A stretch of 5,787 nucleotides of DNA from an uncultured Anaerolineaceae bacterium (lineage in GTDB: Bacteria; Chloroflexota; Anaerolineae; Promineifilales; Promineifilaceae). The DNA lies in contig CALBTC010000335.1 of NCBI GenBank assembly GCA_937967805.1, forward strand, positions 1 to 5,787, in the 5' to 3' direction. Shown piece after piece: positions 3-5,787 of this stretch (within the stretch, counting starts at the first letter, position 1; each line of letters starts with the position of its first letter). Below the pieces are notes generated by a model. It did no database searches. It saw only the letters and a list, made by a program, of their open reading frames with translations, and was not told where the DNA came from. The position numbers were made by a program, and so were the translations under genes.

Positions 3-653
3 AGTGATGGCAATGTGGACATCCTGCGTGACAACGTGATATCCGCCGATCGCGGCGACGATGGCGGCCCTTCCCGCCCCAACCTGTACGTTCTTCCCGC
101 CAGTGATAAACTAAGTGAAGCGAAGGAAGATATTTTAACTGAGTTCGCTTTGCTGGCTGCCCGTTCGATGCGCAGCCGGCGCGGTGGGAATGAAGCGCAC
201 CTGGTGGATATTTTAGATGAGAAGCTGGGGCTGGCTAAACAGGCTTTCTCCTACATCATCGTGGATTGCCCGCCGACACTGGATTTGCTGCAGCAGGCTG
301 TGCATCAATATGCCGATTATGCCATCGTTCCGGTAAAGGTTGACTTTCATGGCGCCAGCGCCACCGGCCGGCATACGAGCAACATCTTGCAAGACCAGGC
401 GGAGGGCATCGACATCACCATCGCGGCCATTGTGCCCACCTTTGTCAATGCCCGGCACAACCTGACCAAGAGTATGATGCGCGAACTAACGCGCGTATAC
501 GGGAAGCAGGTTATCGCCATGCCTGTGCCCAACACAGTCAGGGTAGCGGAAGCTCCGGCCAGTGGTGGTCGCACTGTTTTGGAGTACATGCCGGACTCGC
601 CGGCAGCGATAGCGTATCAGGATTTGGTTGACCGCCTTTATGCCCAAGGATAA
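3..653 (+). CDS. parA: ParA/Soj-family partition ATPase, 5' partial
   Basis: This is the C-terminal 216 residues of a ParA/MinD-type P-loop ATPase. The frame is open to the left edge, so the true start and the deviant Walker A (KGGxGKT) lie outside the window; about 45-60 residues are missing if it has the usual ParA length. The visible part shows the ParA stretch NLYVLPAS (visible residues 27-34), a Walker B-like YIIVDCPPTLDLL with Asp about residue 88, the switch-like VPVKVDFHGASA segment near 109, and a typical C-terminus ending in DLVDRLYAQG. ParA proteins bind DNA non-specifically as ATP dimers and segregate replicons together with a centromere-binding partner. The next gene, 6 nt downstream, encodes a ribbon-helix-helix protein, which fits a partition cassette with a small non-ParB adaptor. 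A chromosomal orphan ParA is possible, but the phage-like neighbours favour a mobile replicon. The family call is secure; the role is inferred. Confidence 0.88.
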   Translation, partial: SDGNVDILRDNVISADRGDDGGPSRPNLYVLPASDKLSEAKEDILTEFALLAARSMRSRRGGNEAHLVDILDEKLGLAKQAFSYIIVDCPPTLDLLQQAVHQYADYAIVPVKVDFHGASATGRHTSNILQDQAEGIDITIAAIVPTFVNARHNLTKSMMRELTRVYGKQVIAMPVPNTVRVAEAPASGGRTVLEYMPDSPAAIAYQDLVDRLYAQG

Positions 654-659
654 TTGATC

Positions 660-1010
660 ATGTCATTTGACGATCCTTTTGCCAATGTAGAGCCACAAAA
701 GCCCAAAAAACCGGCCCGCAGTAGCCGCAAGAAAGATAAGTTCGATCAACCGCTGGATGTTTCGCGACGCGACGCTTACAAAGCGACCGGCACCGGCGGC
801 AGCGCCATGCACGGTGAATATTATCAGCTCACCACTCGCTTGCCGGTGGAGGTTGTCGAACAGGTGCGTGAGTGGGCGGCGGATCTGAAGATGACACAGC
901 AGGACTTACAGCGCTACTGCTTCTATCGCGGGCTGCAGGCGTTAGAGCAGGGGGAGCGACCTGAAGTTGAGGAAGTGGTCGTGCGCAAAAAACTGAAACC
1001 ACCGGAATAA
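660..1010 (+). CDS. Ribbon-helix-helix DNA-binding protein, probable ParA partner
   Basis: A 116-residue protein. ATG at 660 is preferred over the in-frame TTG at 654 because AAGGA (646-650) sits 9 nt before 660 but only 3 nt before 654. Residues 1-35 are basic and probably disordered (KPKKPARSSRKKDK). Residues 54-61 (YYQLTTRL) form a likely beta strand, followed by helices at about 62-76 and 79-97. That strand-helix-helix pattern is typical of MetJ/Arc/CopG-type DNA binders. The C-terminus is charged (EEVVVRKKLK). Small ribbon-helix-helix proteins with a flexible basic N-terminus, such as ParG and Omega, act as centromere binders and autorepressors and stimulate ParA ATPase through that tail. 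The position directly behind parA, probably in one transcript, supports the same role here. The fold is inferred from pattern only, and no specific family member is recognised. It could instead be a plain CopG-like repressor. Confidence 0.72.
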   Translation: MSFDDPFANVEPQKPKKPARSSRKKDKFDQPLDVSRRDAYKATGTGGSAMHGEYYQLTTRLPVEVVEQVREWAADLKMTQQDLQRYCFYRGLQALEQGERPEVEEVVVRKKLKPPE

Positions 1011-1017
1011 TTTGTGG

Positions 1018-1046
1018 TTGACAGGAATAACTTTCCAGAGAAATAA
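1018..1046 (+). promoter_or_regulatory. Possible promoter for the antirepressor gene
   Basis: A perfect -35 hexamer TTGACA (1018-1023) is followed after exactly 17 nt by AAATAA (1041-1046), a poor -10 match. The G8/C8 hairpin begins right after it, so the transcript would start in or next to the hairpin. The weak -10 keeps this tentative; the gene could instead be read through from parA. Confidence 0.3.
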
Positions 1047-1077
1047 GGGGGGGGTGCACGTTACGTGCACCCCCCCC
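1047..1077. repeat. Perfect 14-bp inverted repeat (G8/C8 hairpin)
   Basis: The left arm (1047-1060, eight G then TGCACG) is exactly complementary to the right arm (1064-1077, CGTGCA then eight C), separated by TTA. As RNA it would form an extremely stable 14-bp stem with a triloop. It lies between the ribbon-helix-helix gene and the antirepressor gene and ends 10 nt before the latter's ribosome binding site. No T-run follows on either strand, so it is not a standard intrinsic terminator. It could be an atypical terminator, a 5' mRNA stabiliser, or a protein-binding or partition site. Confidence 0.85.
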
Positions 1078-1101
1078 TCAAAGAAACGGGAGAAGTAGTC
1101 A

Positions 1102-1920
1102 ATGGCAGAAAAAGCACTGGTACCCACCATACAGAAAGAGGTCATTTTTTACGAAGATAGGTTAACGGCCGTACTCGTTGACGTAAATGGAGAGGAGCAT
1201 ATTTATGTGCCTCTCCGCCCAATATGCGACTATTTGGGCCTGCAATACACTGGCCAACGTGATCGAATCCGCCGCGATCCAGTGCTTTCCGAAAACATTC
1301 ACCGAGTAAAAATTTCCCGTGATGTCGCGGAAGGTAGCGACCAGGAAATGGTCTGTCTGGCACTGAAATTCCTGCCTGGCTGGCTGTTCGGTCTTTCTGT
1401 GAAGCGCATCAAAGAAGAGCTGCGCGAAAAGATTATTCGGTACCAGCGTGAGAGTTATGATGTTCTTTGGGATGCGTTTCAAGAAGGGCGGTTGACTACC
1501 GATGTCAGCTTTGATGACTTGCTCCAGCAGGCCAGCAGCGACGTGGTGGAAGCGTACCAGATTGCGCAGGCGATTATGAAGCTGGCCCGCAATCAAATCA
1601 TGCTGGATGCACGCCTGGACGATCATAGCCGTACACTGGAGGAGCATACGCGCCGCCTGGAGACAATTGAAGCCGATATGCACCAGGAAGACCGGTATAT
1701 CAGCGAAAGCCAGGCGACCCAAATCAGCCAGGCGGTCAAAGCCATTGCCATCGCCATGGGAAAGAAAACGGGTCGAAATGAATTTGGCGCTACCTGGGGC
1801 GAGTTCTATCGAAAGTTTGGCATCTCCAAATACCGGTATTTACCCATTTCCAAGTTTGATGAAGCCATGGCCTGGTTGAATGAGTTTTATCAAAGTTTAA
1901 CCGGTGAGACGCCATTCTAG
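1102..1920 (+). CDS. Phage-type antirepressor, P22_AR_N-like plus ORF6C-like domains
   Basis: A 272-residue protein starting at ATG 1102, with GGGAG (1088-1092) 9 nt upstream. Residues 12-130 match the P22 antirepressor N-terminal domain pattern: YVPLRPICDYLGLQ near 35-48, a QRDRIRRDP segment near 52-60, then LKFLPGWLFGL and LREKIIRYQRESYDVLW near 88-123. Residues 150-198 look like a helical, coiled-coil linker (heptad-like LEEHTRRLETIE). Residues 199-266 resemble the ORF6C domain found at the end of many phage antirepressors (ISESQATQISQAV, then FYRKFGISKYRYLP). Such proteins inactivate phage repressors or act as DNA-binding regulators in temperate phages and integrated elements. The gene is followed 33 nt later by the RQC-like gene and is probably cotranscribed with it. 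Both domain calls are confident. The target repressor is unknown; the HTH protein at 2434 is a candidate only because it is nearby. Confidence 0.87.
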   Translation: MAEKALVPTIQKEVIFYEDRLTAVLVDVNGEEHIYVPLRPICDYLGLQYTGQRDRIRRDPVLSENIHRVKISRDVAEGSDQEMVCLALKFLPGWLFGLSVKRIKEELREKIIRYQRESYDVLWDAFQEGRLTTDVSFDDLLQQASSDVVEAYQIAQAIMKLARNQIMLDARLDDHSRTLEEHTRRLETIEADMHQEDRYISESQATQISQAVKAIAIAMGKKTGRNEFGATWGEFYRKFGISKYRYLPISKFDEAMAWLNEFYQSLTGETPF

Positions 1921-1953
1921 GCGCATGTTGGACAGGGTAGGGGGCGTTTGCCT

Positions 1954-2214
1954 GTGATTCAGCTAACCCCTGTACAGCAAGCCATTCTCGATGTGGTGCG
2001 CAAGTATCCAGGCCGTTTCTCCCGCAGCGGCCTGGCGAAGATGCTGGTGGGGGCAAAGTCCTGGCAGGACACAAGCTTTCCGGAATACGGCCGTTTCTCG
2101 CAGCATCGCCGGAAGGATGTGGGCTACCAGGTGGAAGTTATGCTTCAGCAAGGGCAGCTTCAGTTGGATGGTCGAGATTGCCTGATTCCAGTCGTTTCCG
2201 CAGATGATGGGTAG
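1954..2214 (+). CDS. Small RQC-like winged-helix protein
   Basis: An 86-residue protein. GTG at 1954 is preferred because AGGGGG (1939-1944) lies 9 nt upstream; TTG at 1948 is an alternative in the same frame, using AGGG at 1934-1937. The sequence looks like an isolated winged-helix domain of the type found at the C-terminus of RecQ-like helicases (RQC). It shows LTPVQQAILDVVRKYPGRFS (residues 4-23), then SRSGLAKMLVGAKS (23-36), PEYGRF near 43-48, a helix SQHRRKDVGYQVEVMLQQGQL, and a closing beta-wing LQLDGRDCLIP. There is no helicase part, and the reading frame is closed by the preceding gene's stop 11 codons before the start, so it is not a truncated fusion in the same frame. NCBI uses names such as RQC-minor for comparable stand-alone domains; assignment to that family is my inference. 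The role is unknown, but DNA binding is likely. Confidence 0.65.
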   Translation: MIQLTPVQQAILDVVRKYPGRFSRSGLAKMLVGAKSWQDTSFPEYGRFSQHRRKDVGYQVEVMLQQGQLQLDGRDCLIPVVSADDG

Positions 2215-2260
2215 CATTTGCCCCGAAATCGCTTCGCATAGATGTTATTCCCTGATGAAA

Positions 2261-2289
2261 TTGACAATATGGTTACTTGTCGGTAACAT
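2261..2289 (+). promoter_or_regulatory. Sigma70-like promoter P1 with operator-like repeat
   Basis: A perfect TTGACA (2261-2266), a 17-nt spacer and TAACAT (2284-2289, 4 of 6 consensus) form a good promoter upstream of the HTH gene. An inverted repeat GTTAC (2272-2276) / GTAAC (2283-2287) occupies the spacer and overlaps the -10, the expected position for a repressor. Transcription would start near 2296 and give a leader of about 138 nt. Confidence 0.5.
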
Positions 2290-2338
2290 TTCACGCGCTC
2301 TTCTGACAGCCGTCTAGTACTTTAGTCCCCCCACAAAT

Positions 2339-2367
2339 TTGCATCCCCAAAGCCACAGCGATATACT
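2339..2367 (+). promoter_or_regulatory. Sigma70-like promoter P2 of the HTH operon
   Basis: TTGCAT (2339-2344), a 17-nt spacer and TATACT (2362-2367, 5 of 6 consensus) lie in an AT-rich dip just before the operon. The predicted start near 2374 falls inside the inverted repeat at 2371-2407, so a protein bound there would block transcription. The -35 is only half consensus, so an activator or P1 may also contribute. Confidence 0.5.
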
Positions 2368-2370
2368 ATA

Positions 2371-2407
2371 GGTTATGAAATTGGTTTATTTTGGTTTAAT
2401 CATAACC
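2371..2407. promoter_or_regulatory. Compound operator: 8-bp inverted repeat around two 10-bp tandem repeats
   Basis: The arms GGTTATGA (2371-2378) and TCATAACC (2400-2407) are exactly complementary. Between and partly overlapping them are two head-to-tail 10-mers, TTGGTTTATT (2381-2390) and TTGGTTTAAT (2391-2400), identical at 9 of 10 positions and offset by one helical turn. The element sits over the predicted P2 start and just before the HTH gene, the usual arrangement for autoregulation by the first gene product. The repeat structure is directly visible; the function is inferred. Confidence 0.6.
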
Positions 2408-2433
2408 TTTGGGCTATGAGTGGAGTAGTTTCG

Positions 2434-2847
2434 ATGACCACGTCTGAAGAAGCAGGCAAAGATTTCGCCCAACGGCTGGACTATTTGTTTAAGCGGTTCA
2501 CGCATCCTGACGGCCGCGAGTTCAGCTATGAGGAAGTGCAGAACGGCACGGACAAAGCGGTTACGGCCGCTTATATCTGGCGGCTGCGTACCGGCAAAGC
2601 CGCAAACCCCGGCTATTGGGTGATCAAAGCCCTGAGCGACTTTTTCGGCGTCGATCCCAACTACTTTTTCCAGGATGAAAAACAGGCCGTAGAGATGGCC
2701 GACAAACAAGCCCGAACCAACCTGGCAGATCGTTTGCAAAATGATTCCGTCAAAGACATCGCCTTACGCGCCAGTGAACTGGATGAAGCAGGGCGGCAGG
2801 CTATTTTGGGCATGATTGATTACATCCTGCACAAGAAAACAGAATAG
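2434..2847 (+). CDS. EspR-like helix-turn-helix transcriptional regulator
   Basis: A 137-residue protein from ATG 2434, chosen because GGAG (2422-2425) is 8 nt upstream; ATG 2416 in frame would add six residues but has no clear ribosome binding site. Residues 11-82 resemble the N-terminal XRE-type domain of mycobacterial EspR: FAQRLDYLF, an insertion, SYEEV, then AAYIWRLRTGKAANP (recognition-helix region, about 45-59), and ALSDFFGVDPNYFF. Residues 104-133 (DSVKDIALRASELDEAGRQ and following) also parallel EspR's C-terminal dimerisation helices. EspR-type proteins are nucleoid-associated regulators that bridge separated sites as dimers. Here it is the first gene of an operon with an ImmA/IrrE-type peptidase 16 nt downstream; in pairs such as ImmR/ImmA the peptidase cleaves the HTH repressor. 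Autoregulation through the element at 2371-2407 is likely. The family call is firm; the cleavage relation is inferred. Confidence 0.85.
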   Translation: MTTSEEAGKDFAQRLDYLFKRFTHPDGREFSYEEVQNGTDKAVTAAYIWRLRTGKAANPGYWVIKALSDFFGVDPNYFFQDEKQAVEMADKQARTNLADRLQNDSVKDIALRASELDEAGRQAILGMIDYILHKKTE

Positions 2848-2863
2848 AGGTATCGCTATCCCT

Positions 2864-3379
2864 ATGACCGTTGAAGCAAAAATGAAAGCCGTACTGGATG
2901 AACTGGACTTCGATTTTTCGCAGTTTACGATGGACAGCTTCGTGGACTGGATTGAGAGGAGCAGGGGGCGAAAGATTAGCTTTATCCACTGGGAAATGCC
3001 GCCAGGCATGTTTGGCGTTTGGATGTCAGATGCCGACGAGCCGATTGAGCATGTTTTTATTGACAACAGTGTTCCCCTCATGCACCAGGTTCATATTCAA
3101 CTGCATGAATTGAGCCACATTCTCTGTGCGCATCCCACCGCTCGCCTGTCCAGGCATGAGATGGGTGAGCTGCTGTTCAAAGCGGCCGAAGACCCTGGCG
3201 TGCTAAACGAAGTGCTGCTGCGAGCGCCGGCGAAGAAAGAGCTGGAAGAAGAGGCGGAAATCATGGCTGCGCTGATCCAGCATCAGGTGATCCGGCATGA
3301 ACGGCTGCAGCAGTTGGGCGTGGCCGCCTCGTCCAACGAAGGTGTTATTGATCACCTCCAGTCATTGGGATTGGTTTAA
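2864..3379 (+). CDS. ImmA/IrrE-type (DUF955) metallopeptidase
   Basis: A 171-residue protein from ATG 2864. AGAGG (2846-2850) lies 13 nt upstream, a rather long spacing, and a second ATG at 2882 has no ribosome binding site. The zinc motif HELSH is at residues 81-85 within HIQLHELSHILCAHP, and the third ligand is expected in the Glu cluster of ELEEEAEIMAALI (126-138), a close match to the ImmA/IrrE arrangement. The upstream FIDNSVPLMHQVHIQLHE also fits, with residues before the helix forming the family's usual strand. These proteases inactivate partner HTH repressors when triggered by DNA damage or cell signals. Residues 1-40 are acidic with no recognised domain. The reading frame ends 4 nt before the next gene. 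The HTH-peptidase order matches regulator pairs in integrative elements and in many actinobacterial operons. The substrate is most likely the HTH protein just upstream, which is inference. Confidence 0.88.
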   Translation: MTVEAKMKAVLDELDFDFSQFTMDSFVDWIERSRGRKISFIHWEMPPGMFGVWMSDADEPIEHVFIDNSVPLMHQVHIQLHELSHILCAHPTARLSRHEMGELLFKAAEDPGVLNEVLLRAPAKKELEEEAEIMAALIQHQVIRHERLQQLGVAASSNEGVIDHLQSLGLV

Positions 3380-3383
3380 GCGT

Positions 3384-4547
3384 ATGTGGGATAAAGTTGT
3401 TATTGCCACACTGGCCTGGTTTGTGACCATCTATAAGTTTGACGCGATGCGGCGCGATGGGCAGTGGCGCACTGGCTCGGTGACATTCTATTTCTGGGCG
3501 TTTTCCCTTTTCACATCAATTGGTCTGACCCTGATGATCTGGCCCGTCTATCTGGCCTTTGATCGTCTGGTGGGGCTGGCGAACCTGGGCTGGTTGGTGA
3601 TTTACGTGTCATTTGCGCTGGCGATTTATTTCATTTCCGCAGGCTGCTATATCGTGCTGGAGCAGCCCAAACCCCGGCTCATGTCGTGGAGTTTACTTCT
3701 GACCGTGGTCGTGCTGACTGTGGTCTATGCCGTCGGCATTGTCACGCTGCCTGAAAAGGCGGACCATACCGTGCCGGAAGTGTTAGCTGAAGTCATCTTC
3801 ATGCAAACCATTTACATCTACATAGCCGTTTTGTGCGCTATCCCCATGTTTACCTTCATCCGGCTGGCCCGGCACGAGCAGATTGTTTCAGCGCGACTGC
3901 GGTGGCTGGTGGGATTCTTTGCTTCCTTTTTCTCTTTCACCGTATTGCTTATCAAAATTGTCCTGACCGTGCTGGCTTTTCAGAACCCGGCCACGCCTGC
4001 ATTGACGATTCTGTATCCTTTGATCACGGTGGGGATTGTGGCTGTCAGCATCTTCATCACGCTTGCTTTCTTGCCCAACAAGCTCTACCAGGTAGCGGCA
4101 CGGCCGTTTGAGTTCCTCGACAAGCTGCTGGCTCTCTACGAGTTGAAATCGTTGCAGAACCGGCTGGATCCCCTCTGCCCGCCCGTTGTGACCGGGCGTC
4201 TCCGCCTAAAAGATGTGTTGGGCGACCTGGATTATCATCTCTACCGGGCACTGATTGCCATTTGGGATGCCAAGAAAACATTGTCCGGGTATGCCGGTCT
4301 TACCCATGACCTGACCCTGCTGCCGGTGACAGCCATTCACAGCCCCGGCAGAACCTTGCCCGAATGGGATGCGCAAAAATTGCAGCAGGCGCGGCTTTTA
4401 CACGACGCGCTGCAAACGGTGGATGACGAGCAGCCATTTACGGCGTTGGTGAAATCATACCAGCGTGTCAGCCGGACCGTGCGCCGGAAGATGGGGGTCA
4501 ATTTCTCTCTCGGAGGTACCGCTCTTGACGTCGCCTACCAAAACTGA
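3384..4547 (+). CDS. 7-TM protein with cytoplasmic domain, MAB_1171c/DUF6545-like
   Basis: A 387-residue integral membrane protein from ATG 3384, 4 nt after the peptidase stop. No good Shine-Dalgarno is visible, so translation is probably coupled. Hydrophobic segments are seen at about 4-17, 33-57, 66-92, 102-122, 136-159, 173-199 and 205-230, giving seven likely TM helices. The remaining 155 residues are soluble. They begin with ARPFEFLDKLLALYELKSL and contain DLDYHLYRALIAIWDAKKTL (281-300), which resembles the helix LYRRVIEIRDAI-type core of the DUF6545 domain in so-called MAB_1171c putative transporters. In Actinobacteria, proteins of this kind often sit beside an HTH regulator and an ImmA/IrrE-like protein, the same order as here. 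The transporter label is a database convention; a 7-TM bundle with a cytosolic helical domain could equally be a sensor. The topology is clear, the family likely, the function unknown. Confidence 0.72.
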   Translation: MWDKVVIATLAWFVTIYKFDAMRRDGQWRTGSVTFYFWAFSLFTSIGLTLMIWPVYLAFDRLVGLANLGWLVIYVSFALAIYFISAGCYIVLEQPKPRLMSWSLLLTVVVLTVVYAVGIVTLPEKADHTVPEVLAEVIFMQTIYIYIAVLCAIPMFTFIRLARHEQIVSARLRWLVGFFASFFSFTVLLIKIVLTVLAFQNPATPALTILYPLITVGIVAVSIFITLAFLPNKLYQVAARPFEFLDKLLALYELKSLQNRLDPLCPPVVTGRLRLKDVLGDLDYHLYRALIAIWDAKKTLSGYAGLTHDLTLLPVTAIHSPGRTLPEWDAQKLQQARLLHDALQTVDDEQPFTALVKSYQRVSRTVRRKMGVNFSLGGTALDVAYQN

Positions 4548-5133
4548 GGTCGGCCAGGACCGCTTGGCCCGGCTATTATCTAACGTTTTTCACCCCTTTC
4601 TGGTGTCCCTGATCACGCTGATTCTGGTTATTTACCTGGACGGTACGGCGTTTTTAGACGCCATCAAGTGGACGGTTATTGGCTTTGGCATCGTTATTTT
4701 GCCGTTGACTATCTACCTGATTATCAATGTCCGGCGCGGCCGTTACAGCGACTGGAGCATCTCGATCCGGGAGCAGCGCCACACTATCTATGTTCTGGCC
4801 GGCATTTGTTTCGTGATTTTAGTGCTTACCTTCATCTGGGCCGGCGCACCGTCAATTGCCCTGGCTTGCCTGTATGCGGCGCTGCCTACCGTGGCCATTG
4901 CGGCCGTCATCAACCGGCTGGTGACGAAGATAAGCCTTCATGCGGTGGCGATGGCCGGGTGCGCGGCGGCGCTGTACTGGGTATCGCCGTTGCTGGGTGT
5001 GCTGCTGGCGTTGGCGGGTATTGGCGTCAGCTGGGCGCGGATGCGCCTGAAACACCACACGCTGGCGCAAATCCTGTTAGGGTGGGGGGTAGCCGCTGGC
5101 AGTGTGTTTGTCGTCTTTGGACTGTATTTGTAA
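4525..5133 (+). CDS. PAP2-like membrane phosphatase, atypical motifs
   Basis: A 202-residue membrane protein. TTG at 4525 is chosen because a perfect GGAGGT (4512-4517) sits 7 nt before it. This makes the gene overlap the end of the previous one by 23 nt and implies translational coupling. Around five or six TM segments are visible: about 22-38, 46-68, 87-106, 109-130, 139-168 and 183-201. PAP2-like signatures are a DWSISIREQR loop (76-85) where motif 1 would be, SLH (137-139) in place of PSGH, and R172-x5-H178-x3-Q182, which keeps the Arg and His of motif 3 but has Gln for the usual Asp. The spacing from His139 to Arg172 fits the family. PAP2 enzymes dephosphorylate lipid phosphates or pyrophosphates such as undecaprenyl-PP and phosphatidate. 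The changed Asp may alter or reduce activity. The fold is fairly confident; substrate and activity are unknown. Confidence 0.72.
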   Translation: MTSPTKTEVGQDRLARLLSNVFHPFLVSLITLILVIYLDGTAFLDAIKWTVIGFGIVILPLTIYLIINVRRGRYSDWSISIREQRHTIYVLAGICFVILVLTFIWAGAPSIALACLYAALPTVAIAAVINRLVTKISLHAVAMAGCAAALYWVSPLLGVLLALAGIGVSWARMRLKHHTLAQILLGWGVAAGSVFVVFGLYL

Positions 5134-5138
5134 TGGCA

Positions 5139-5167
5139 AGGAAGGATAGCGCATGATGAGGCCATAA
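5139..5167 (+). other. Possible 4-codon leader ORF with strong ribosome binding site
   Basis: AGGAAGGA (5139-5146) is followed 6 nt later by ATG at 5153, reading Met-Met-Arg-Pro and stopping at TAA 5165-5167, directly ahead of a hairpin with alternative pairings. It could be a leader peptide, a remnant start of a lost gene, or chance. No conservation evidence is available. Confidence 0.25.
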
Positions 5168-5207
5168 AAGAAAAAGCCGTTGCCAGTATGGGGATACTTG
5201 CAGCGGC
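5167..5207 (-). terminator. Long hairpin; intrinsic-terminator shape on the minus strand
   Basis: GCCGTTGC (5176-5183) pairs with GCAGCGGC (5200-5207) with one G-U, and inside it AGTAT (5185-5189) pairs with ATACT (5194-5198), leaving a GGGG loop and one C/T mismatch. The stem is about 13 pairs. The + strand has an A-rich run (5167-5175) before the stem and no adjacent T-run after it, so a terminator works only for minus-strand transcription. No minus-strand gene is visible in the window that would need it. It may also mark the end of the four-gene operon in a less canonical way. Confidence 0.5.
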
Positions 5208-5213
5208 CTCTAA

Positions 5214-5232
5214 GCAACGTTTTTAGCGTTGC
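5214..5232 (+). repeat. Second hairpin, able to compete with the first
   Basis: GCAACG (5214-5219) and CGTTGC (5227-5232) form a 6-bp stem around a TTTTTAG loop. The same CGTTGC also occurs at 5178-5183 inside the left arm of the upstream hairpin, so GCAACG could pair with either copy, an attenuator-like switch. The pairing is visible; the function is not shown. Confidence 0.5.
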
Positions 5233-5233
5233 C

Positions 5234-5425
5234 CACCGGGGTTAGCGGTGTATCAAATTCAGGCAGTATTATAGACAGTTTTTCTCGTCTTACCAACTTC
5301 CCCGGTGTCGTCGTACAAAGCACGGGCGTACACGTTACGCAATGCATTGAACCGTTTGTTCAGGCGCAACGGCCGTTTGCGTGGCATATCCACGCGCCTG
5401 CAACATAGTCGCTGGAGGATAAAGT
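5234..5425 (+). promoter_or_regulatory. Structured leader region upstream of the response regulator
   Basis: This gene-free stretch holds several complementary pairs: CACCGGGG (5234-5241) with CCCCGGTG (5300-5307); GCGTA (5326-5330) with TACGC (5336-5340); palindrome CAATGCATTG (5340-5349); palindrome AACGGCCGTT (5368-5377); CAGGCGC (5361-5367) with GCGCCTG (5394-5400); and GCGTGG (5379-5384) with CCACGC (5390-5395) around CATAT. The last two pairings are mutually exclusive. A -10-like TATTAT is at 5267-5272, but no -35 at proper spacing is seen. A transcript from there would carry a folded 5' leader of about 150 nt. No known riboswitch class was recognised. Confidence 0.4.
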
Positions 5426-5430
5426 TGGTG

Positions 5431-5787
5431 ATGATAATGAGTCGAAAAATCCGGGTGGTGGTAATAGATGATCAGGAGGTGGTGCGCATCGGGGTGAGAG
5501 CGGCGCTGGAGCGTAACGGCCGTATCGAAATCGTGGCCGAAGGCGCAACAGAAGCCGACGCGATCCGGTTGGCTAATGCCCATCACCCGGATGTGCTGCT
5601 GCTGGGGTTAAACACAATCAATAAAGCCAAGCTGGCGCACAGGACCTTGTCTGCTTTTGACACCATTCGCCGCCTGGTGAAAGACTGCCATACAAAGGTT
5701 CTGCTACTCTCCCGGCATGGTCAAAAGGGCCTCATGCACACCATGTTGCATGCCGGCGCCAGCGGCTTCATGCTCAAGGATGAAGCC
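5431..5787 (+). CDS. Response regulator receiver domain lacking the phospho-acceptor Asp, 3' partial
   Basis: 119 codons are visible before the window ends. GGAGGA (5414-5419) lies 8 nt before GTG 5428 and 11 nt before ATG 5431, so the start could be either; ATG 5437 is less likely. The sequence is a NarL/FixJ-like receiver: VVVIDDQEVVRIGVRAALE (residues 9-27) with the acidic pair D13-D14, PDVLLLGLN (53-61), VLLLSRH (90-96) with Ser in the Thr/Ser position, and AGASGFMLKDEA with the conserved Lys116. The phosphorylated Asp is replaced by Gly59 (codon GGG at 5605-5607). The usual MPxxDG loop is gone, replaced by an extended NTINKAKLAHRTLSAF segment about eight residues longer than normal. The C-terminal helix-turn-helix expected for this family would lie beyond the edge. 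It probably acts without phosphorylation. No sensor kinase is seen in the window. Confidence 0.82.
   Translation, partial: MIMSRKIRVVVIDDQEVVRIGVRAALERNGRIEIVAEGATEADAIRLANAHHPDVLLLGLNTINKAKLAHRTLSAFDTIRRLVKDCHTKVLLLSRHGQKGLMHTMLHAGASGFMLKDEA

Follow-up and report, generated by a model that had tools for sequence, protein, structure and literature searches.

A conserved four-gene unit of Chloroflexota linking an EspR-like regulator, an M78-type peptidase and a seven-helix membrane protein to an exchangeable enzyme

The contig CALBTC010000335.1 of an uncultured Anaerolineaceae bacterium (assembly GCA_937967805.1), analyzed here as one stretch of 5,787 nucleotides (nt; hereafter, the window), carries at positions 2434–5133 four consecutive + strand genes for an EspR-like helix-turn-helix (HTH) regulator, an M78-type metallopeptidase, a seven-helix membrane (7TM) protein and a PAP2-like enzyme. 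This unit is real and is conserved beyond the window: related modules share its architecture and gene linkage in two phyla, Chloroflexota and Actinomycetota, catalytic residues of the peptidase and of the PAP2-like protein are conserved, and the PAP2 link is true, being tightened to gene fusions in some genomes, while PAP2 is one of several partner enzymes exchanged at this place. Our best reading of the unit, of moderate confidence, is a transcription switch that is gated by a receptor, works by proteolysis and serves an enzyme that can be swapped, a mechanism that we infer from the parts. No published description of this four-gene system was found in the open literature searched, nor was any paper found there under the names DUF6545 or PF20182, and one there names MAB_1171c; this agrees with a prediction made earlier from the sequence alone (the original prediction), which suggested that the system may be functionally uncharacterized.

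The four genes and their products

The genes of the unit are as follows, with product lengths in amino acids (aa).

2434–2847, + strand: EspR-like helix-turn-helix regulator, 137 aa, ATG at 2434
2864–3379, + strand: M78-type (ImmA/IrrE-like) metallopeptidase, 171 aa, ATG at 2864
3384–4547, + strand: seven-helix membrane protein, receptor-like, with a predicted cytoplasmic DUF6545-like domain, 387 aa, ATG at 3384
4525–5133, + strand: predicted PAP2-like membrane phosphatase, 202 aa, TTG at 4525

The genes are tightly packed on one strand, as had been claimed: the HTH and peptidase genes are separated by 16 nt, the peptidase and 7TM genes by 4 nt, and the 7TM and PAP2-like genes overlap by 23 nt. 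An earlier possible start exists for each of the four frames, and the starts used are those listed. The TTG start is preceded by GGAGG at 4512–4516, and an MTSPT N terminus is common to several PAP2-like relatives; lengths of the peptidase and 7TM relatives are mostly near the 171 and 387 aa of the window. Matches of the four proteins were sub-threshold in Pfam and NCBIfam and weak in PHROGs and PADLOC, and therefore their labels were tested by other means. An Rfam scan of the window gave no match.

The HTH protein gave nothing over cut-off in a Pfam scan. Its match to EspR in the PDB (3r1f; E 2.3e-9) covers residues 9–131 of 137, that is, near whole length, and the HTH and the C-terminal region of EspR are thus found within one small protein, in agreement with the original label. 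By eye, an EspR-like HTH is joined to the second half of a peptidase in the 196-aa protein P0074; as one part lacks its end, the other lacks its start and there is no contig, this HTH-peptidase fusion may be an artefact and was set aside.

The peptidase had no hit in a Pfam scan including PF06114, and three actinobacterial relatives gave 16.0 bits, 14.0 bits (cut-off 22) and no hit with that family. Its class is given by HExxH and a downstream Glu metal ligand: H81, E82, H85 and E132 are invariant in all 30 aligned peptidases from the two phyla, and HExxH is found in 44/44 peptidases. A structure model matches IrrE/PprI/CapP, consistent with an M78 fold, and the ImmA-type assignment of the original prediction stands on these grounds. 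The window protein is approximately a bare peptidase domain and lacks the sensory portion that IrrE/CapP have.

The 7TM protein scored 18.0 bits with DUF6545 (PF20182; cut-off 24.4) and 48.1 bits over residues 6–353 with NF042915, the MAB_1171c subfamily (cut-off 100). Because both scores are below cut-off, it is called a remote relative of these families, and the predicted likeness to DUF6545 is to be taken in this weaker sense. Relatives from loci L142, L144, L145 and L109 (L and G numbers are our locus and genome names) scored 98–132 bits with DUF6545. The modeled structure suggests a bundle like that of G protein-coupled receptors (GPCRs). A profile alignment (hhalign) with HisKA_7TM reached 58.7%, a link that is suggestive only. 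Four Anaerolineae proteins of 637–686 aa (L082, L084, L086 and L087) resemble HisKA_7TM in their N-terminal region (E 3e-4 to 6e-8; above cut-off in two) and have, by eye, an HTH-like C terminus, with a weak GAF match in L082; these may be DNA-binding membrane receptors of the one-component kind. No relatives were found in 7TM profile scans of the genome and viral collections, nothing in tblastn searches of plasmids with the window and L025 7TM proteins, and no match of the L090 7TM protein among phages. For the namesake of the family, a Mycobacterium abscessus MAB_1171c mutant has been described with about 50% less biofilm and lowered minimum inhibitory concentrations of cefoxitin and clarithromycin (PMC8707978).

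The PAP2-like protein scored 16.0 bits with Pfam PAP2 (cut-off 27.2). In the usual naming of PAP2 motifs, C2 contributes Ser/His and C3 Arg-x5-His, while canonical C1 is K-x6-RP and C3 has an Asp. The C2 and C3 active-site residues are present in module proteins, S137 and H139 in 18/18 and R172 and H178 in 17/18 (G283 excepted). At the places of canonical C1 and the C3 Asp, R82-x2-R85 and Q182 are found instead; because of these deviations the protein is described as PAP2-like, the term already used in the original prediction.

Conservation of the core and exchange of the enzyme

A PAP2 profile scan of the genome collection found two loci as nearest named relatives, in Ardenticatenaceae (L001) and Anaerolineae (L002), and the close relatives IPM39_27860 (peptidase) and IPM39_27870 (PAP2-like) are both from one “Chloroflexi bacterium,” bearing out the predicted non-actinobacterial setting. 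Of the 298 genomes of the class, 14 had matches to the peptidase profile, at 22 places; of 400 genomes of the phylum, 62 matched a broader profile with a lax threshold, in many cases weakly. From these, 41 Chloroflexota peptidase loci were read in context: L001, 20 from the class search (wider flanks were obtained for 21 of the 22 places, G249:C11 excepted) and 20 from the phylum search, these being the 20 best new ones among 73 matches listed, with three of the others known beforehand and the remaining 50 weaker. The partners beside or within the core are as follows.

PAP2-like, 16/41 (profile A2): L001, L025, L029 (fragment), L030, L031, L033, L034, L036, L037, L038, L142–L145, L150, L159
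P450, 9/41 (Pfam): L026, L027, L028, L042, L043, L148, L149, L160, L161
Flavin adenine dinucleotide (FAD) monooxygenase (Pfam): L035
Methyltransferase (Pfam): L039
CrtC-like lipocalin (Pfam): L147
Unassigned gene: L044
No partner, 7: L151–L154, L156–L158
Contig end, 5: L032, L040, L041, L146, L155

The 16 PAP2 loci include G203, where a C-terminal piece of about 45 residues is left, and G283, where most catalytic residues are missing in the alignment. The P450 of L028 was called from its likeness to L027, and that of L026 consists of two overlapping frames, one of which was scanned. The P450 gene lies 3′ of the 7TM gene in L042, L043, L149 and L161, between the peptidase and 7TM genes in L148 and L160, between the HTH and peptidase genes in L027 and L028, and before the peptidase gene in L026.

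A same-strand 7TM-type gene is found in 33 of the 41 loci, ten of these having first been assigned by position; among them, the genes of L149, L150 and L159–L161, grouped with that of L148, match the family profile at 96.8%. In L151–L154, L157 and L158 a membrane-protein gene lies on the opposite strand (those of L151 and L153 match the 7TM family profile at 92.2%), none is seen in L156, and the contig ends in L155. Likewise, 33/41 loci have an upstream HTH gene on the same strand, recognized by eye in four (L035, L041, L043 and L044); in L029 and L030 the HTH gene has the opposite orientation, and none was found in L001 (cut), L026, L033, L040, L042 and L143. The four-gene order recurs among Chloroflexota relatives: the full HTH-peptidase-7TM-PAP2 set, in window order and on one strand, is present in 11 of the 16 PAP2 loci (L025, L031, L034, L036, L037, L038, L144, L150 and L159, and with the last two genes fused L142 and L145). 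Genome G249 has six peptidase places, a paralogous expansion, of which one has a PAP2 partner, one a P450 and one an unassigned gene, while two are at contig ends and one is unread.

In three loci, L142 and L143 of genome G378 and L145 of G371, the 7TM-DUF6545 and PAP2-like parts form a single open frame without a stop. The fusion proteins are 631, 658 and 629 residues long, respectively; the 7TM profile covers residues 2–399, 30–427 and 2–398, and the PAP2 profile the last ~190 residues. The two fusions scanned with Pfam DUF6545 gave 131.5 (L142) and 125.0 bits (L145). In L144 (G314), the context of which is like that of the fusions, the 7TM and PAP2-like genes are separate and overlapping. 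Judged from sequence, the fusion is the strongest evidence that the 7TM and PAP2 parts would work together.

PAP2 relatives are found in 131 of the 298 class genomes, from which the probability that one lies next to a particular peptidase locus by accident is roughly estimated at ~1e-3 or less; the arrangement, which also recurs in relatives, is taken to be more than chance. The six top-scoring PAP2 places are all in modules, and the other module ones (G254, G234, G203 and G283) score lower, among the rest; two further high-scoring places, G249:C82 (with a stop) and G204:C29, lay outside the context reading. Within ~1.5 kb of 22 free-standing PAP2 loci (L052–L072 and L074, some of them truncated where the contig stops), neither the peptidase nor the 7TM protein had a match. 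In PAP2 trees, the Chloroflexota module proteins and database rows of unknown context form one side and the free-standing proteins stand apart (support 100/99).

The same core is found on actinobacterial plasmids. With the divergent L027 peptidase as a query, 64 plasmid records were found, all of actinobacterial genera, and relatives of one Streptomyces 7TM protein were found in 39 plasmid records. Twenty-three regions, chosen non-randomly, were read, and 22 are counted (19 Streptomyces, two Amycolatopsis and one Rhodococcus; the broken-up L110 is excluded), with fourth-gene labels mostly as annotated. The gene behind the peptidase-7TM pair is a P450 in four, an FAD monooxygenase in three and a weak FAD-type protein in one; an FAD oxidoreductase stands behind a second 7TM gene in two, and the others have an amidase (two), a PAP2-like gene (two), a methyltransferase, a polysaccharide deacetylase or a second 7TM gene (one each), no fourth gene (four) or the record end (one). 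In L099 (2956–5306) and L104 (1805–4215), a tandem pair of 7TM genes behind one peptidase gene is followed by an FAD-dependent oxidoreductase gene, and the tandem proteins are possible heterodimeric receptors. In 16 of the 22 regions, an HTH gene could be assigned upstream. The Streptomyces, Rhodococcus and Amycolatopsis clusters of an HTH gene, a “toxin” and a MAB_1171c/DUF6545 gene share three homologous parts with the window and differ in the fourth gene, which is mostly a P450, FAD enzyme, methyltransferase or amidase. In Amycolatopsis sp. AA4 and A. japonica, the fourth gene of the cluster is PAP2-like, as in the window, and its product scores 28.3 (AA4) and 19.1 bits against the cut-off of 27.2.

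Profiles of the two phyla match at 98.0–99.7% for the HTH, peptidase and 7TM families (99.5% for HTH and 98.0% for 7TM), confirming the predicted echo of actinobacterial clusters in the first three genes. In a 7TM tree, Chloroflexota and Actinomycetota lie on opposite sides of a branch with support 100/99, so that no recent transfer between the phyla shows among the rows sampled. The suggested horizontal movement is accordingly supported by the patchy distribution (14/298; 62/400 at the lax threshold) and the plasmid location, but not by the tree. Partner type changes at least nine times among 28 labeled rows with five states on this tree, indicating a stable core with exchange of the enzyme. 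For the PAP2 partnership, one shared origin in both phyla and separate recruitment in Amycolatopsis are both possible: tree placements of the Amycolatopsis PAP2 proteins disagree, as they fall outside the Chloroflexota module clade in one tree and join it at support 46/1 when G283 and P0139 are left out. An approximately unbiased test (p 0.001) is uninformative on origin, the group named having omitted database rows that lie inside it.

A proposed switch and its alternatives

Upstream of the HTH gene, the following features were found.

2261–2289, + strand: promoter-like TTGACA-17-TAACAT, 10/12 matches to a sigma-70-like pattern
2338–2367, + strand: promoter-like TTTGCA-18-TATACT, 9/12 matches to the same pattern
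2370–2408, strand not assigned: perfect 9-bp inverted repeat AGGTTATGA-N21-TCATAACCT, a candidate operator from sequence only

In the proposed switch, the EspR-like HTH protein would repress its own operon from the 2370–2408 repeat. The 7TM protein, with its N terminus outside and its DUF6545-like domain in the cytoplasm, would sense a ligand, most likely a hydrophobic one, and would activate or release the small M78 peptidase of the adjacent gene. The peptidase would then inactivate the HTH protein through cleavage, as ImmA does with ImmR and IrrE/PprI with DdrO, and the induced operon would supply the PAP2-like enzyme. This enzyme would probably dephosphorylate a lipid or isoprenoid phosphate, which may be the ligand, its precursor or a target, closing a receptor feedback loop. 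Signal, cleavage and substrate are what we infer here.

The scheme is modeled on known pairs. ImmA-ImmR is an M78 peptidase and HTH repressor acting as a proteolytic switch (PMC2701414), and in PprI-DdrO and CapP-CapH an M78 protease relieves repression by cleavage, PprI and CapP responding to single-stranded DNA (PMC10904395). The window unit is like these in having the M78 fold, HExxH and an HTH repressor gene alongside. In contrast to PprI and CapP, which are larger and respond to single-stranded DNA, its peptidase is approximately a bare domain, a separate 7TM protein and an enzyme are encoded, and the HTH is of EspR type. Since the peptidase is nearly bare and its neighbor is mostly a receptor-like 7TM protein, a split M78 switch is the simplest reading. 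In BlaR1/MecR1-BlaI, sensor and protease are in one protein; in the window, they are separate and of other families.

Like Mycobacterium tuberculosis EspR, which it resembles over its whole length, the HTH protein has an inverted repeat with a long spacer at its own candidate promoter. EspR is a nucleoid-associated protein, whereas the window HTH is a putative local operon regulator beside a peptidase. At the espR promoter, the inverted repeat CAGCAAA-N16-TTTGCTC lies in the protected zone (PMC3315491); the spacing is 16 nt there and 21 nt in the window, and the motif is different. The window repeat sits directly 3′ of the −10-like TATACT (2362–2367), between it and the HTH start codon, and TTGGTTTA occurs twice within it, in copies 10 nt apart. 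Arms of this length were found in 0/100 shuffles. A repeat with 21-nt spacing is seen in the window, in G099 (two related copies) and in G173a. A common operator with 21-nt spacing was tried and rejected, as this spacing is not enriched over neighboring ones when mismatches are allowed; because unusual repeats occur in 7 of 29 modules tested and lack a common spacing, the window repeat is a candidate only. The original prediction gave the operon its own promoters, and two sigma-70-like matches do lie upstream, but they are weak candidates because five such sites are seen against 2.4 expected in 2200–5450 on both strands.

Of the lipid or envelope role in the original prediction, the link between the 7TM and PAP2 proteins stands, as the fusions indicate. 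P450, FAD monooxygenase, methyltransferase, amidase and CrtC-like proteins can, however, take the place of PAP2, so the core resembles a switch for sensing in general more than a system devoted to lipid remodeling. Most of the partner enzymes would fit hydrophobic molecules, and in the fusion the enzyme is coupled to the receptor; the ligand may therefore be produced, removed or reported by the enzyme.

This bears on an alternative that is possible, though we rate it clearly below the switch, in which the enzyme stands on the input side and makes or loads the 7TM ligand, as an autoinducer synthase or accessory sensor subunit, with the regulated targets elsewhere, e.g., in adjacent Tad-pilus-type genes. 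The fusion, by directly coupling enzyme and receptor, would suit it. So would the actinobacterial conservons, which are like the present unit as conserved multi-gene signaling operons with an optional accessory gene, a P450 in some; in these, receptors that have no sensory domain are accompanied by accessory P450 or GAF proteins, and one such GAF protein has a modulating effect on its kinase (PMC13343842). Because these accessory proteins act at the input, the alternative stays alive. The conservon core has a histidine kinase and a GTPase, and none of the four core proteins named in that paper is an M78 peptidase or DUF6545 protein. For targets elsewhere, Flp/Tad-pilus-type RcpC/CpaB-like (SAF domain) genes were found by profile search close to the module in eight of the 41 Chloroflexota loci (L032, L033, L038 and L142–L146), divergent in seven, and the reduced biofilm of the MAB_1171c mutant (PMC8707978) points the same way; the module may control pilus genes. 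CpaE/TadZ-like ParA ATPases lie near the module in 15/41 loci, L151–L154 and L156–L158 among them, plus two weak cases; the RcpC and CpaE profiles were built from some of the same loci. Two of four RcpC-like proteins scanned exceed the Pfam RcpC cut-off and two are below, and 11 of 12 module genomes searched have one to three RcpC matches each, in 10 of them over cut-off. Against the input-side alternative, the enzyme gene is last in the window operon, no enzyme is present in 7/41 Chloroflexota and 4/22 plasmid loci, and the window has no pilus genes.

Less probable, and in our view unlikely, is a transport or envelope-lipid housekeeping operon, in which the 7TM protein moves a lipid dephosphorylated by PAP2 and the HTH-peptidase pair provides ordinary control of the local genes. 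Recycling of polyprenyl phosphates is a frequent task of PAP2 enzymes, and the NCBIfam name of the 7TM family is “putative transporter.” The phenotypes of the MAB_1171c mutant in biofilm and in both drugs (PMC8707978) would also fit, but PAP2 is swapped for P450s, FAD enzymes and methyltransferases, and the 7TM model appears GPCR-like, not transporter-like. A toxin-antitoxin or abortive defense unit, with the peptidase or membrane protein toxic and the HTH protein as antitoxin, is improbable: several actinobacterial plasmid records label the peptidase “toxin,” Xre-COG2856 pairs were once listed as candidate toxin-antitoxin systems (PMC2701414) and the HTH protein weakly matches capH, but the same paper ties ImmA to repressor cleavage and sets aside Xre pairs with membrane proteins, and receptor-like and enzyme parts are conserved together with the peptidase. 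The defense role suggested originally is not supported by PADLOC, whose matches were weak for the HTH protein (capH, E 3e-5; RmrA, 8e-4) and marginal for the peptidase (PDC-M69B, E 0.02).

If the receptor-gated switch is true, a membrane-receptor branch would be added to the M78 protease-repressor switches, and a function would be suggested for DUF6545/MAB_1171c proteins; the names “toxin” and “transporter” in use for proteins of the module may mislead. Through the 7TM-PAP2 fusion and the exchangeable enzymes the question of the ligand becomes directly testable, as the enzyme repertoire points to hydrophobic small molecules. More speculatively, and with considerable doubt, the modules might form a GPCR-like prokaryotic receptor system for lipophilic signals, passing from the 7TM protein, which in some species is joined to the enzyme producing or destroying its ligand, to a soluble M78 protease and an EspR-type repressor, with PAP2, P450, FAD monooxygenase, CrtC-like or methyltransferase enzymes swapped to retune it and Tad pili possibly under its control.

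Neighboring genes

Downstream of the unit, the window ends within one further gene.

5428–5787, + strand: NarL/LuxR-type response regulator, truncated at the end of the window, ~290 nt downstream of the PAP2-like gene

This NarL-type regulator is a conserved neighbor in L001 and L002 and is probably a unit of its own. In L001 (2251–6290) and L002 (655–5234), it is followed in the same order by a lipoprotein-like protein of 675–688 aa, so called by eye without a Pfam match, and a secreted-looking protein. Response regulators also occur near L031 and, by eye, near L029, L030 and L035.

The left flank of the window (3–2214) encodes a truncated ParA partition protein, a P22_AR_N/ORF6C antirepressor (1.8e-29) and two small proteins, one of which gives a weak RQC match, and from its gene content looks like a mobile element. 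Just 5′ of the antirepressor gene, at 1047–1077, lies the palindrome GGGGGGGGTGCACGT-T-ACGTGCACCCCCCCC, a candidate terminator, operator or replication feature.

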